Below, piece by piece: positions 24,306 to 30,619 of a DNA stretch of 42,826 nucleotides; within the stretch, counting starts at the first letter, position 1, and the number at the start of each line of letters is the position of its first letter. A program made the position numbers and the translations under genes. Location of the stretch: positions 1-42,826 of the forward strand of contig MHVH01000001.1 of assembly GCA_001825155.1 (NCBI GenBank). Reading direction: 5' to 3'. The notes under the pieces are model-generated. The model was not told the DNA's origin. It saw nothing but the letters and a program-made list of their open reading frames with translations, and did no database searches. The stretch is from Candidatus Zambryskibacteria bacterium RIFCSPHIGHO2_01_FULL_46_25. GTDB lineage: Bacteria > Patescibacteriota > Minisyncoccia > Phycocordibacterales > Zambryskibacteraceae.

Positions 24306-25154
24306 TTATATCATTTGTTTAAGTTTGTAAGCATTCCCATGCTTGAGCATTCCTAAATACGAAGCTCTCGATTCTTCAGACGGATTGATACTTAAATTCT
24401 TCCTCATTCTTCTCTTCGTCACCGTTCTCAAGACTCTATGGTCTGGAAAATGCACCCAACCCAAAAAATCTACACCAGAAGAAAGAGTTTTAATAAAAAC
24501 TTTATCGGGATGAAGTTGTAGTTTTAATTTTTCATTTAGGAATAGTTCGATATATCGAACTATTCCTACCAGATGATTTTTGTCGTGAGATAGAAAAACA
24601 AAGTCATCGGCGTATCTAATGTAATACCTTATCTTCAGTTTATGCTTAACGAACTGGTCAAATTTGTTCATGTAGACATTAACCAAAAGTTGAGAAGTGA
24701 GGTTGCCCAGAGGTAATCCTTTACTAGGAGCAGTTTCAAAGCTTTCGATAATCTGAGTTAGAAGCCAAATGACATTCTCGTCCTCGATGTAATTCAATAC
24801 GATATATCGTAGTGAATCGTGGTCTATGGAAGCGAAGAATTTTTTGATGTCACACTTCAAAATCCAGTATTGTTTGGTGTTGTTTTTAGACACTTTGCCT
24901 GCAAAATACTTGAATCTTTCCAGAGCTTTGTGCGTGCCTTTGTTTATACGGCAAGAATATGAGTCGGAGATGAACTTTTTATCGAAATAGGGATAAAGAA
25001 CTCTGTAGATAGCATGATGCAAGAGTCTATCTCGGACGGAAGCTTTGTGGATGTTTCTGGGCTTGGGGTCAGAAATGTTGAAGGCGTGATAAGGACCGTG
25101 GGTGTAGGTCTTATTTTTTAAATCCTGATGGAGAGCAAGGATATTGTCCATCAA
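24306..25154 (-). CDS. DGR-type reverse transcriptase; homologous sequence continues upstream in frame to ~25276
   Basis: DPKPRNIHKASVRDRLLHHAIYRVLYP, ILKCDIKKFFASIDH, GLPLGNLTSQLLVNVYMNKFDQFVK (DGR-like GxxxSQ motif), YIRYADDFVFLS (YADD). Upstream in-frame FNRFCHTYEHIISVENLLEAWKEFLNGKRGKRDVQEFHLNL fits an RT N-terminus. Confidence 0.92.
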   Translation of the reverse strand: MMDNILALHQDLKNKTYTHGPYHAFNISDPKPRNIHKASVRDRLLHHAIYRVLYPYFDKKFISDSYSCRINKGTHKALERFKYFAGKVSKNNTKQYWILKCDIKKFFASIDHDSLRYIVLNYIEDENVIWLLTQIIESFETAPSKGLPLGNLTSQLLVNVYMNKFDQFVKHKLKIRYYIRYADDFVFLSHDKNHLVGIVRYIELFLNEKLKLQLHPDKVFIKTLSSGVDFLGWVHFPDHRVLRTVTKRRMRKNLSINPSEESRASYLGMLKHGNAYKLKQMI

Positions 25155-25276
25155 ATTTAAATGGAACTCTTGGACGTCTCGTTTACCACGCTTGCCATTT
25201 AGGAATTCTTTCCAGGCTTCAAGCAGATTCTCAACCGAGATGATATGCTCATAGGTATGACAGAACCTATTAAAAG

Positions 25277-25286
25277 CCCCCCCCCC
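25277..25286. repeat. 10-nt homopolymer C/G tract between avd and RT 5' ends
   Basis: + strand taaaag(C)10aacggg. Confidence 0.95.
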
Positions 25287-25294
25287 AACGGGTT

Positions 25295-25660
25295 TTGCCC
25301 GGAGTTTTGGAAAAGATTAAGTGTGCTTATGTTGTCTGGCATAAAACTCATATAATTCTACCCCAAGTAAACCGATATACACTCGGAAACAAGATCGATA
25401 AGTTATTTATCGAGATAATAGGAAATGTCAGCGCTGCATCTTTCCTGCCGAAAGAGGAGAGGTTACCGGACGTGAGAAAATCAATCAGGAAACTGGACGT
25501 ACTTAAAATCTTGCTAATGGTCTTATGGGAGACAAAATCGATTACAAACAAAAAATATATTGAAATTTCTTCATTCCTAGATGAAATCGGAAGAATGCTT
25601 GGAGGTTGGCGTAATCAAATTTTAAAACAAAACTCCCAAACCGAAGTCTGGGAGAAATGA
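25295..25660 (+). CDS. avd: DGR accessory protein Avd-like (four-helix bundle)
   Basis: LPQVNRYTLGNKIDKLFIEIIGN...RLPDVRKSIRKLDVLKILLMVLWETKSITNKKYIEISSFLDEIGRMLGGWRNQI; start TTG as given or further upstream across the C tract. Confidence 0.85.
   Translation: MPGVLEKIKCAYVVWHKTHIILPQVNRYTLGNKIDKLFIEIIGNVSAASFLPKEERLPDVRKSIRKLDVLKILLMVLWETKSITNKKYIEISSFLDEIGRMLGGWRNQILKQNSQTEVWEK
25628..25655 (-). terminator. Rho-independent terminator after the TR (UUCG tetraloop)
   Basis: Minus strand ctcccagac ttcg gtttgggag ttttgtttt; 9-bp stem with one G-T wobble; embedded antisense in the avd 3' end. Confidence 0.7.
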
Positions 25661-25670
25661 GAGATTTGCG

Positions 25671-25766
25671 CACGCCCGCGAAGCGGTAGTTCCGGTTCCA
25701 CCTATTGTCGTTCCGGTTGACGTTCACCCTACGCTTGCCGTCGTTGCGGTTGAAGATCGCGTAGCA
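25671..25766 (-). repeat. DGR template repeat (TR)
   Basis: Aligns without gaps to 26091-26186 (offset 420). In frame it reads CYAIFNRNDGKRRVNVNRNDNRWNRNYRFAGVRK with AAC/AAT codons at variable positions. Confidence 0.88.
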
Positions 25767-25986
25767 TTGTACAATAAGCCATCTTTGCCACTGCCCCTCG
25801 AATACTCTTGGAGCTGTACAGTATTCCGCATCATAATGCGTTAGCTTACCATACCAAGTATCTTCATTTTTTGAGTTTGCATGCGCTACTCTTTCCGAAA
25901 CCTTGGTCGCGGAAATTCTCGGCGCATGGATACTGGATTCGGGGACTGGAAACCTTGGTCGCCAATACTTCCCTACTACCACGAAT

Positions 25987-25992
25987 ATTATA
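25987..25992 (-). promoter_or_regulatory. Candidate -10 (TATAAT) for TR RNA
   Basis: Minus strand tttttgtataat between the target-gene terminator and TR; no convincing -35. Confidence 0.3.
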
Positions 25993-26002
25993 CAAAAATT
26001 CA

Positions 26003-26030
26003 GGGCGAGCATTCTTGCGAATGCTCGCCC
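26003..26030 (-). terminator. Rho-independent terminator of the DGR target gene
   Basis: Minus strand gggcgagcattc gcaa gaatgctcgccc tgaattttt; perfect 12-bp stem. Confidence 0.8.
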
Positions 26031-26081
26031 AAGAGCTAGAGCCAAAGGATCTAGAAAACCCAGAAGCCCAAGCTCTAAGAA

Positions 26082-26696
26082 TCACTTGCGGACGCCCGCG
26101 AAGCGGTAGTGCCGATACCACCTGCTGCCGCGCCGGCGGACGTCGACGCCGCGCCTGCCGCCGCCGCGGCCGAAGATCGCGTAGCAAGCACGACCCCGCT
26201 TGTCTCGCCACTGAACGGCAACAGGTCGCTCGTCGGCGAAGGCGGGATCGTCGGCCATGACTTGTGCCACAGCGGCGGGGTCGGGGCGAAGACCGTGGGC
26301 TTCATACTCGCGGTCAAGTTCGTCGACTGTCGGGTCGTAGTCGAGTTCGAAGAACTCGACTCTATCCTTCGCCAGCCCCTCGAGCGGCATCTCGGCGAGG
26401 ACTTCCTCGTCGATGTACCACTTGATGCGACCGGTGGCATCAACCACCTGTGCCGCCGTCTTGGTGCGGTCGACCTTGACCGCCCGACGAATGATGTTCG
26501 ACACCATCTCGACGCGCTTCTGGAACAACGCGAACATTTCGCTCGCGAGCTCCTGCATGCCGAGAACCGTTTGCACAGTCTCCGCCTGGAACTCTCCGGC
26601 ATGCTTCTCGAGCAACGCCCGGTAGTTCGCGACAGCCTTGTTGATCTGTCCCGCCGTTGTAACCTGCTGTTCGGACGGGATCATGGTTTTAGCCAT
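26082..26696 (-). CDS. DGR target protein with C-terminal variable region
   Basis: MAKTMIPSEQQ...; C-terminus CYAIFGRGGGRRGVDVRRRGSRWYRHYRFAGVRK matches the TR translation at fixed positions and differs at every TR Asn codon; ATG at 26696 has an SD (gggag). Confidence 0.85.
   Translation of the reverse strand: MAKTMIPSEQQVTTAGQINKAVANYRALLEKHAGEFQAETVQTVLGMQELASEMFALFQKRVEMVSNIIRRAVKVDRTKTAAQVVDATGRIKWYIDEEVLAEMPLEGLAKDRVEFFELDYDPTVDELDREYEAHGLRPDPAAVAQVMADDPAFADERPVAVQWRDKRGRACYAIFGRGGGRRGVDVRRRGSRWYRHYRFAGVRK
26091..26186 (-). repeat. DGR variable repeat (VR)
   Basis: Paralogous to TR; 16 of 21 mismatches lie at TR coding-strand adenines. Confidence 0.88.
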
Positions 26697-26758
26697 GGCG
26701 TCGTCTCCCAAGCTGCGCTGGCATGCGGTAAATCCGCACCCATCAGCTTCTGTTTTCA

Positions 26759-26852: not shown

Positions 26853-27338
26853 TTAAGTCAAGTGACTATTTTGTAACCCTTCATTTATGGCTTTAACTAG
26901 CGATTTTTTTGGCAAATTCAAGTCGTCTAATTTTAGATAGCCCAAATGATAGAGAATTTGGGCGACGAAATCAATTTCTGCAACACCGAGTGTTGCAGAT
27001 TTTTCCACGACATCGAAGAGTTCGGGGTGTATCGCTTCGCCTTGGACAAGCTTCTCAAGGAGAGCGAGCGGTCGAGCAATTGCTTCTTCGGCGGGAATTT
27101 TCTTTATAAGTTCGGCTGAGGTCAGACGCCAGCTATCCTTCCCTCTCACCAGAGAAACGCTCGAGAGAGAAACCGGTTCTATATTGCCGCGCAATTTTGA
27201 CGCAGCTTTCCTCACGCCCAAAGCGGAGGCTCTGACGAGACCGAGATCGCGCGTGAGAATATTGTAAACGCGGTCAGCTTCCCGCACAGGTTGCGCGGAT
27301 AGAATAATCCCTTTTGTCGTATATATGTGATAGGACAC
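26853..27338 (-). CDS. recO: DNA repair protein RecO (short)
   Basis: MSYHIYTTKGIILSAQPVREADRVYNILTRDLGLVRASALGVRKAASKLRGNIEPVSLSSVSLVRGKDSWRLTSAE. Confidence 0.85.
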   Translation of the reverse strand: MSYHIYTTKGIILSAQPVREADRVYNILTRDLGLVRASALGVRKAASKLRGNIEPVSLSSVSLVRGKDSWRLTSAELIKKIPAEEAIARPLALLEKLVQGEAIHPELFDVVEKSATLGVAEIDFVAQILYHLGYLKLDDLNLPKKSLVKAINEGLQNSHLT

Positions 27339-30300
27339 TAGAATTCGATATTTGTTGCCTTCTTTATTTCCTCCGCATGTTTGGAGAAAAATTCTTTTTC
27401 CGCTTCGGGTACTTCGTAGCGCGCGGTCTCGCCAGGCTTGAGCCCTCTTTCCTTCCTCCAGTCCTGAACAGCGCGCATCGCATCACGCACCCTCCCCTCT
27501 TCTTCGAGTTTCGGAGTAAGAGTTGTATCGAGGCAAACGTCGCCCTCGAGCGCATTGTTTACTACAACTTCTTTCACATTCAATTCATCTTTGATTATTT
27601 CCAGATATTCCGACCCAAGCGCGTCTGTCCTGATCTCGAGCTTGGCGAGCGGCTGACGCACCTTGATACCGGCTTTCGAACGCGCTTCGAGAGCAAGCGA
27701 CACGATTTTTCTCGCCTCTTCCATATTCTCAAGTATTTTCTGGTCAACGCTGCCGGCCTTGGGCCAATCTTCCAAATGCACGCTCTCCTTGCCGCCCTTC
27801 AGGCGTCGGTAGATATCTTCGGCTATGAAGGGCATGACCGGAGCAATCAGTTTGGAGAACTCCTGGAATACATGGCGCGCCGTGCCAAGAGCTTCCTGGT
27901 CTCGAACTTTGAACCTGTCTCTCGAGCGCCTGATATACCAGGTTGAGAGGTCCGAGACAAAATCCTTTATCGGTCTGGTAGCCCGAACCATGTCATATTT
28001 TTCCATAGCTTCCGTAACTTCTCCGATAAGCTGGTCCAACCGCGCCAGAATCCAGCGATCTAGTACATGTTTAGTTTCGAGTTTCGAGTTTCGAGTTTCG
28101 AGCTTACCATCAGCGTACAGTTCGTAGAAGCTGAAAGAATTCCAGAGAATGTTGATAAGCCTATTGTGCACATCTTTGATTTCCTCATCCTTGAAGAGCA
28201 TGTCCTCTGCCTGCATGACAACGGAAGACATGAGGTAATAGCGGAAAGCGTCCGCACCCATACTGTCGATAAGCACCAGAGGGTCAGTATAGTTGCCCTT
28301 CGACTTGCTCATCTTCGAGCCGTCCGCAGCCACGACATTGCCCGTCGTTATCACATTTTTGAAAGCGATGTTGTCGAAGAGGGCTGTCGCTATGGTGTGC
28401 ATGTAGTAGAACCAGGTCCTCGTCTGGGCAATGTACTCCGCCACAAAGTCTCCCGGAAAACGGTTCTCGAATTCTTTCTTATTCTCGAAAGGATAGTGAT
28501 ACTCGGCGAAGGGCATCGAGGCCGACTCCACCCAGCCGTCAATTACTTCCGGAATTCTCTTGAGTGGCTCGCCGTCTTCGGAAATCAATTCGATATCATC
28601 GATATACGGGCGGTGAAGGTCGAGCTCGAAATTTTTATTGTGAGGCAGCGGTACAAAATCAAGTTTCCGAAATTCTCCCGTTTTTATCCACCTGTTGTTG
28701 GGTATAAATTTTTCGGCATTCTCTCCCTCTGTCATCCTCTCAAGCCACCAGATCGGCTCTCCGTGTGATATAACAAGAATTTTCTTGTTCTGATATTTAT
28801 TTTCAATATCGTAGATGAAATCCCCCATCCTGCGTCTTGCTGATGATCCTTCTTCATTCTGACCTATTTCGCGTAGCCTTTCATCGACGACAAAATCTCT
28901 GCCAATTATTTCCGCTGATTCGCGCGCTCGAAGGAAGGGTGAACAGAAAACAAGATCAAATTCTTGCCCCTTAATCTGTTCCACTTCTTGCTTACCCTTC
29001 TCCGTCAAATGATTCTCGGGATCTCCGGTTAAATCAAGAATGTTTTTAACATTGCTCTCTGCCTGCCCGTGTCGCATTACGAAATATTTGTTGCCGGATT
29101 TTTTCGTATGCTTCTTAAGCTCATCTATTGAGCCGATGAGATAAATCTTGCCACTTGCGTCTTTCCAGATTGGCAAAGGAGAAGCCCAATAGCGATTGCG
29201 GGAAATCGTCCAATCAGGCGCATTCTCGACGATGTTCAAGAATCGACCATGCTTCAGGTATTCTGGCACCCAGTTAACCTTCTCGTTGAGTTTAATCATG
29301 CGGTCCTTCACTTTCTGAATGTTAATAAACCAGGAAGTCAGGGCGTTGTAGACAAGCGCCGTGCCGCAACGATGACAGTGCGGGTAGGAGTGGGTATGAT
29401 TCTCACGTTTGAACATTAGACCCCTCTTTTCCAAATCGTCTTTGATTGCTTTTTCCGCTTTTTTGAAATACTGACCGCGAACAAGTTCCGGTGCGGCGTT
29501 ATTGAAGTGACCTTTCTCATCAAGAAGCGGCACTTGAGGCAAATTTTCGCGAAGACCCAACTGGTAGTCATCTTCGCCGTAGAGAATTGCCGTATGAACA
29601 ATGCCGGTGCCATCTTCCGTCGTTACGAAATCAGCCGCGTATACGTGATATGCTTTTGAATCGTCTGTAATTCTATAGAGTGGCTCATACTCAAGACCTA
29701 CAAGCTCCGTACCCTTCATTTCTCGCACAACCTTATAATCATCATTGCCAAACACGGTCTCCAATCGAGCCTTCGCCAAGACAAATCTCACAAGCTCCCC
29801 ATCCCCCATGTCTTTCTTCTCAATCTCGACATAATCAATATCCGGATGAACGGCTAGCGCAACATTGCCTGGCAAGGTCCACGGCGTGGTTGTCCATGCC
29901 AGAAAGGATTTATTCTCTTGTCCCTTGATTCTAAATTCCACCGTAACCGATTCTTCCGTAACGTCCTTGTAGCTGTTATCCATCGCCACTTCCGCCTTGG
30001 CAATCGGCGTCTGGCAATGCGGGCAATACAGGAGCACCTTGCGACCTTCGTAGAGAAGGCCTTTTTTATTTATCTCACTCAAAGCATGCCAAACACTCTC
30101 GATGAACGTGTTGTCCATCGTTTTGTAGGCATTGTCATAATCAACCCAGCGTCCGACACGATCCACATACTGTTTCCACTCACGCACGTAGCGCAGAACG
30201 GAAGAGCGGCAAGCTTCGTTAAATGCTTCTATGCCAAACTTGGATTCGATTTCGAGCTTGTCTTTAATGCCTAGCTCCTTCTCAATCATATTCTCGATCG

Positions 30301-30562
30301 GCAAACCGTGGCAATCCCAGCCCCAGCGGCGACGAACGTGGAATCCTTGCATGGTCTTGTAACGCGGGATGACGTCTTTGATAATCGAGGAAAGCAAACT
30401 TCCCGCATGAGGCAAGCCAGTGGCGAATGGTGGCCCGTCGTAGAAAATAAATTCTTTTTTCCCCTTCGACTGACTCAGGGTCTTCGAGAAAATTTTGTTG
30501 TCTTGCCAGAATTGGAGGATTTTCTCTTCCTTTTGTGCTCTTTCGGACTTCATTTTGGTCAT
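27338..30562 (-). CDS. ileS: Isoleucyl-tRNA synthetase with inserted histidine-phosphatase-like domain
   Basis: YDGPPFATGLPHAGSLLSSIIKDVIPRY, WGWDCHGLPIENMIEKELGI, KMSKSKGNYTDP; insertion contains YFVMRHGQAESN..DLVFCSPFLRARESAEII..ILVISHGEPIWW. ATG at 30562 preferred to TTG at 30610. Confidence 0.93.
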   Translation of the reverse strand: MTKMKSERAQKEEKILQFWQDNKIFSKTLSQSKGKKEFIFYDGPPFATGLPHAGSLLSSIIKDVIPRYKTMQGFHVRRRWGWDCHGLPIENMIEKELGIKDKLEIESKFGIEAFNEACRSSVLRYVREWKQYVDRVGRWVDYDNAYKTMDNTFIESVWHALSEINKKGLLYEGRKVLLYCPHCQTPIAKAEVAMDNSYKDVTEESVTVEFRIKGQENKSFLAWTTTPWTLPGNVALAVHPDIDYVEIEKKDMGDGELVRFVLAKARLETVFGNDDYKVVREMKGTELVGLEYEPLYRITDDSKAYHVYAADFVTTEDGTGIVHTAILYGEDDYQLGLRENLPQVPLLDEKGHFNNAAPELVRGQYFKKAEKAIKDDLEKRGLMFKRENHTHSYPHCHRCGTALVYNALTSWFINIQKVKDRMIKLNEKVNWVPEYLKHGRFLNIVENAPDWTISRNRYWASPLPIWKDASGKIYLIGSIDELKKHTKKSGNKYFVMRHGQAESNVKNILDLTGDPENHLTEKGKQEVEQIKGQEFDLVFCSPFLRARESAEIIGRDFVVDERLREIGQNEEGSSARRRMGDFIYDIENKYQNKKILVISHGEPIWWLERMTEGENAEKFIPNNRWIKTGEFRKLDFVPLPHNKNFELDLHRPYIDDIELISEDGEPLKRIPEVIDGWVESASMPFAEYHYPFENKKEFENRFPGDFVAEYIAQTRTWFYYMHTIATALFDNIAFKNVITTGNVVAADGSKMSKSKGNYTDPLVLIDSMGADAFRYYLMSSVVMQAEDMLFKDEEIKDVHNRLINILWNSFSFYELYADGKLETRNSKLETKHVLDRWILARLDQLIGEVTEAMEKYDMVRATRPIKDFVSDLSTWYIRRSRDRFKVRDQEALGTARHVFQEFSKLIAPVMPFIAEDIYRRLKGGKESVHLEDWPKAGSVDQKILENMEEARKIVSLALEARSKAGIKVRQPLAKLEIRTDALGSEYLEIIKDELNVKEVVVNNALEGDVCLDTTLTPKLEEEGRVRDAMRAVQDWRKERGLKPGETARYEVPEAEKEFFSKHAEEIKKATNIEF

Positions 30563-30593
30563 TCTAACACACTCACTCGTCTGCTCAGTAGTC

Positions 30594-30619
30594 GCCCTCT
30601 CCTTGCTCAAGGAGAGGGC
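30594..30619. repeat. Palindromic element between argS and ileS: gccctctccttg ct caaggagagggc
   Basis: 12-bp perfect arms; similar in style to the tatD element. Confidence 0.85.

Follow-up and report, generated by a model that had tools for sequence, protein, structure and literature searches.

The window, a 42,826-nucleotide stretch of DNA, is contig 1 of a Patescibacterial genome of 581,808 bases (0.58 Mb) in 7 contigs, whose closest named relatives are Candidatus Zambryskibacteria and further Parcubacteria/Patescibacteria, and it carries a reverse transcriptase (RT) gene, an avd gene, a template repeat (TR1) and a small target gene (T1) with a variable repeat (VR1), the coordinates of which are collected in Table 1. 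The best PDB match of the RT is 8ub7, the BPP-1 DGR RT. Between TR1 and the RT gene, on the opposite strand and head-to-head with the latter, lies avd, whose product matches Pfam bAvd at 5.8e-10, just over the cut-off, and NCBIfam DivGenRetAVD at 4.7e-14, below the cut-off of that model. The Avd model is a four-helix bundle (pLDDT 92) that fits BPP-1 Avd (4dwl) with a TM of 0.79-0.89. T1 is homologous to the target of a second element in the same genome and to many Patescibacterial DGR targets, and its predicted structure is confident (pLDDT 90.7), with weak C-type-lectin-like matches, none of them significant; comparing profiles of Avd and of the target with PDB sequences gave no informative match. 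The presence of adenine-confined TR/VR mismatches, an RT with YxDD and LGxxxSQ motifs, Avd, a C-terminal VR and a hairpin past the VR indicates that the repeat pair is part of a genuine diversity-generating retroelement (DGR), here called DGR1.

Table 1. Features of the DGR1 locus, in window coordinates
Feature	Position	Strand	Basis or remark
DGR RT body	24306..25276	-	Pfam RVT_1; phrog_1423 3.2e-97; YADD and LGNLTSQ in translation
Extended -10-like TGATATGCT	25241..25249	+	7 nt before avd ATG, leaderless-type spacing; antisense within RT codons
Proposed avd ATG	25257..25259	+	ON form MTEPIKSPPPQRVLPGVLEK...; out of frame with avd body at C10
C10 tract (G10 on RT strand), proposed phase switch	25277..25286	+	in 5' coding end of avd, just upstream of RT body
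avd body	25295..25660	+	in frame from TTG 25295 to stop 25658-25660; antisense to RT and TR; Pfam bAvd
RT ATG codons (first bases 25342, 25351)	25340..25351	-	inside antisense avd; RT opens from them only if the tract is 8 or 11 long
UUCG hairpin, then T-run	25633..25654	-	fold -14.3 kcal/mol, z -3.3; also in the second DGR
TR1 (template repeat)	25666..25766	-	homology to VR; 6 substitutions on own branch, with TR2 and a congeneric TR as reference
12-bp perfect stem, GCAA tetraloop	26003..26030	-	fold -24.9 kcal/mol, z -5.7
Target gene T1 (204 aa)	26082..26696	-	ORF and translation; VR at extreme C-terminus
VR1 (variable repeat)	26086..26186	-	adenine-only differences relative to TR2

The GCAA hairpin, 55-82 nt downstream of the VR, is predicted to act as the target terminator and/or as a DGR-type hairpin, and it lies farther from the repeat than the hairpins of phage DGRs, which are found at 4-34 bp (PMC3240598). 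The UUCG hairpin with its T-run is likely the terminator of the TR RNA, and it overlaps the 3' end of the antisense avd. Among relatives, the recurring Avd C-terminus KQNSPxKAGEK (window 25620-25660) is antisense to this terminator-like hairpin, and what keeps it conserved may be the hairpin instead of the protein. An Rfam search of the locus gave no meaningful match. The T1 region (window 26100-26700) has a G+C content of 59-67%, against 34-54% in its surroundings, as though it had a different origin or were under a different codon pressure. Elsewhere in the window, the gene for IleRS (27338-30610, minus strand) encodes a His_Phos_1 (histidine-phosphatase) domain inserted in the catalytic region at about residues 505-650, and a query spanning this insert matched 40 of the 41 relatives searched, nearly always inside IleRS-size open frames.

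A sequence-only reading of this region had proposed a TR/VR pair at an offset of 420 that bears the mark of adenine-specific mutagenesis. Pairwise alignment confirmed the offset and the coordinates and extended the homology to 101 nt, with the minus strand as the coding strand. On that strand, mismatches are enriched at TR1 adenines, affecting 16 of 27 as compared with 6 of the 74 other positions (Fisher one-sided p=2.7e-7), essentially the counts obtained earlier by hand (about 16 of 25 and 5 of 61). The adenine changes comprise 12 to G, 3 to C and 1 to T, and no VR1 adenine stands opposite a TR1 non-adenine. All 8 TR Asn codons in the segment are indeed altered in the VR. The 3' end encoding RFAGVRK, described as untouched, is unchanged as a peptide but not wholly so as DNA, since silent positions have changed. 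Because adenine-specific transfer from TR to VR beside a DGR-type RT and Avd is what a DGR predicts, the mutagenesis reading is supported, and the signature is even cleaner in relatives, whose pairs usually have 0 non-A mismatches. Application of the same search rule to the surrounding 7 kb yielded no pair beyond TR1/VR1.

The six non-adenine mismatches acquire a probable source when the second, paralogous DGR of the genome (DGR2) is considered. VR2 and TR2 lie on contig 6, and the DGR2 RT spans the end of contig 6 and the beginning of contig 3, two contigs that overlap by about 70 bases. When VR1 is compared with TR2, 18 of 29 adenines differ together with 0 of 72 other positions, and all six non-adenine mismatches are gone. 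With a congeneric TR (L021) as outgroup, TR1 has 6 derived substitutions that are absent from VR1. Given the identity of VR1 and TR2 at 72/72 non-A positions and the 6 non-A mismatches with TR1, the most recent writing of VR1 probably used a TR2-like template and not the adjacent TR1; in the simplest view, the TR RNA of DGR2 would have written VR1 in trans. It is possible, if rather doubtful, that these mismatches arose because TR1 wrote VR1 long ago and then drifted, with no cross-talk from DGR2: an ancestral TR1, minus its 6 derived substitutions, would fit VR1 at all non-A positions but one. That one is a derived C at position 42, common to VR1 and TR2, where TR1 and the outgroup have G, and the preference for a TR2 template over an ancestral TR1 rests on this single site. 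The complete non-A identity of VR1 and TR2 also counts against drift, as the two elements are elsewhere only 75% identical in DNA over about 1 kb, with saturated synonymous sites. VR2 (L014:5157-5260) differs from TR2 by a 3-nt in-frame insertion and 3 non-A substitutions, unlike most pairs.

A further feature of the locus is the C10 tract. At a length of 10, both avd and RT are out of frame from their ATGs, whereas at 8 or 11 avd opens from its proposed ATG and RT from the ATGs within avd. DGR2 has a tract of 9, at which avd is out of frame, and its two genes likewise open from an ATG at 8 or 11. DGR1 as assembled is thus predicted to be OFF for both genes. At C10 the RT frame itself is open but has no ATG, GTG or TTG before residue 54 or so. 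The idea that the RT is a decayed gene lacking a start codon was rejected, because an ATG opens it at tract 8 or 11 and pN is far below pS: between DGR1 and DGR2, pN is 0.22 for Avd and 0.12 for RT, with pS about 0.77, a pattern indicating that both proteins are conserved under selection. The genome's third RT (L005:5329-8222, on C5 of this genome, G000) is unsupported as a DGR; its best matches are UG17/UG4 defence-type (UG/DRT) RTs, and a large serine recombinase follows directly. On the same C5 (L260, 40146-40155), a G10 tract stands directly after ATGACAAAATTGCTG, and beyond it, in a different frame, comes an open frame of 381 aa that starts with a signal-peptide-like stretch; this gene is assembled OFF and is a candidate for a second kind of phase-variable gene.

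The generality of this arrangement was examined in two collections. The first comprised 80 loci from RT similarity plus congeners, in which VR, TR, antisense avd and RT almost always follow one another in this order and C7-12 occurs in the avd 5' end of 75/80. The second was an independent sample spread evenly over the phylum, in which 110 of 380 genomes had Avd and 90 loci were read; here avd is antisense to RT in 86/86 loci with an RT nearby and the repeats are polyC, CT, AG, CA or AGGAC. After deduplication, 129 of 162 avd loci show one of these repeats in the 5' end of avd (polyC 112, CT 10, CA 4, AG 2, AGGAC 1); unit lengths are only 1, 2 and 5, with no unit-3 or unit-6 repeat at the avd 5' end in any of the 162. 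Of the 74 G/C runs of at least 8 in 679 kb of loci, 70 fall within a 120-nt spot at the avd 5' end. In L064 and L103, which have avd and RT set apart, the tract accompanies avd and not RT; because of this, and because CT/CA repeats substitute for the tract, roles of the G-tract as promoter spacer, ribosome-binding site or polypurine RT primer were rejected. Among phage DGRs in IMG/VR, taken as a negative control, 53 loci (45 with sense avd, 8 with antisense avd) are without the repeat, and the two IMG/VR loci that carry it look Patescibacterial.

Reading frame separates the two classes of loci. Of the repeat-bearing avd genes, 38/129 share the frame of an upstream ATG, as expected if one third did so by chance (p=0.40), in contrast to 32/33 of the repeat-less ones (Fisher p=2.8e-13), of which only L155, a locus that lacks a nearby RT, is out of frame. 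The same picture emerges from the evenly drawn sample by itself (17/52 versus 27/27 in frame, p=8e-10), and avd is in frame in the tract-less or interrupted cases L039 and L079 and in the sense-avd case L092. In 111 of the 112 polyC loci, some tract length brings an ATG into frame with the avd body, where shuffling of the upstream sequence predicts 55.6, and a recurring ON-form N-terminus results, e.g. MSxLNFHK...[TS]PPP. Upstream of this ATG, an extended -10-like TGNTAWNNT is placed at exactly 7 nt in 39/128 loci, a spacing that suggests a leaderless avd mRNA and is confounded by the RT codons on the opposite strand; since ATG and -10 are antisense to conserved RT codons (H.Y..II), their conservation could partly be an RT constraint. 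On the avd tree, the repeat is inherited (14 changes against 29.4 for shuffled labels), whereas the ON/OFF state is scattered as if at random (28 changes against 30.6). The avd bodies of repeat-bearing relatives are intact while their phase differs. Near-identical locus pairs came from the same genome or shared the same tract, one genome being taken per species.

These lengths were taken from assemblies, in which homopolymer lengths can be wrong, and the random phase might in principle be an assembly or sequencing artefact, as metagenome assemblies and homopolymers of 8-12 are error-prone. Such an explanation is highly improbable, however, because phase is random for dinucleotide repeats as well (6 loci in frame, 10 out) and the one pentanucleotide locus is out of frame, and because errors would neither give 80% of loci a repeat at the same position nor co-phase two genes. 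This co-phasing is seen where RT has no downstream ATG of its own: RT then gains an ATG in the avd-ON frame in 31/40 cases as compared with 12/80 for the other frames (p=2e-11), while control loci whose RT has its own ATG show no link between RT and the avd-ON frame (p=0.55). In 49 of the 126 repeat loci that have an RT nearby, about 40% and the present locus among them, RT too would be made only at the ON length.

Among OFF loci with a TR/VR pair, 41/46 have zero non-A mismatches in the best 70-nt window, and these adenine-only pairs imply that the elements were mutagenic recently, so that OFF is not dead. Recent activity at some OFF loci, and the ability of homopolymers to promote slippage, could also fit a tract that serves programmed ribosomal or transcriptional slippage, supplying Avd at a low, unvarying ratio that does not depend on how long the tract in the genome is. 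This is very unlikely, as the shift needed varies (-1 in 39 loci, +1 in 37, none in 20) instead of being fixed, and CT, CA, AG and pentanucleotide repeats do not promote slippage of that kind. Avd might otherwise be made constitutively from a non-ATG start past the tract in an ordinary DGR, the repeat being incidental and of no regulatory significance. At 25295, 8 nt past the tract, the present locus has a TTG, a possible alternative avd start, and about half of the loci checked (35/75, this one included) have a GTG, TTG or ATG between tract and avd body, through which avd expression could leak. Yet 40/75 have no such codon, repeat-less loci keep avd in frame with the upstream ATG, differing repeats, all of unit 1, 2 or 5, recur at one site, and the tract follows avd when avd is displaced, which together make constitutive expression improbable.

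The preferred reading, held with considerable confidence on the strength of these comparisons, is that DGR1 is an element whose mutagenic machinery would be under translational phase variation through the avd/RT repeat. Slipped-strand mispairing in the C/G tract would alter its length by one, a small fraction of cells would gain or lose in-frame Avd, and at this locus RT too, and target hypermutation would be ON in the in-frame cells and OFF in the rest. In the characterised DGR, Avd is required for cDNA synthesis and retrohoming, which is why hypermutation would be expected to follow the Avd frame. Nonsense mutations in avd bring retrohoming to background in reconstituted BPP-1 (PMC12875486), and the requirement for Avd in Patescibacteria is extrapolated from that system. 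We infer that slippage should switch hypermutation on and off here and in most related Patescibacteria. It is also reasonably likely, judging from the sequence comparisons, that one repeat in the avd/RT antisense overlap serves a targeted mutator as its bidirectional ON/OFF switch, with hypermutation silent in most cells and stochastically released in a few across much of the Patescibacteria, so that two localized hypermutation systems would be stacked.

The anatomy of the locus is that of an ordinary DGR, and what would differ is its control. It resembles the BPP-1 DGR (brt, avd, TR, mtd-VR) in its related RT, the same Avd fold, adenine-specific transfer from TR to VR and a hairpin downstream of the VR, and differs in that avd is antisense and head-to-head with RT, the TR RNA carries a terminator-like hairpin of its own, the target is small and unrelated-looking, and the avd and RT frames cross an unstable repeat. 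Patescibacteria were already known to be DGR-rich, and the Patescibacteria (CPR) elements of DGR clade 2 in the 2021 global survey are similar in host group, in being cellular DGRs and in having targets without recognisable extra domains; the text of that survey makes no mention of avd, frameshift or phase variation (PMC8144416). The repeat resembles those of SSR contingency genes, such as the polyG/polyC tracts of Neisseria, Campylobacter, Haemophilus and Bordetella, in that units of 1, 2 or 5 lie in the 5' part of the coding sequence, one of the three frames is ON and the phase is random among genomes. Known SSR contingency genes mostly switch surface structures or restriction-modification, whereas the product switched here would be a targeted mutator, and one repeat would serve two divergent overlapping genes. 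A search of the open literature, outside which Paul 2017 and Wu 2018 lie, returned no report of a repeat-switched avd/RT layout, an earlier mention in either of the two being possible; on that basis, DGRs and SSR contingency loci are each known, and what appears new is their combination in the avd/RT head-to-head overlap across a phylum.

The regulation of DGR activity in nature has been described as an open frontier (PMC12875486). If the proposed switch is true, it would represent a concrete, widespread and testable form of such control, namely a reversible DNA switch on the mutator itself, and it would explain how a DGR stays clean and intact though mostly silent. Tract length would then be a marker of DGR activity in metagenomic reads of these mostly uncultured organisms, and a population could keep its target sequence steady yet seed variants.
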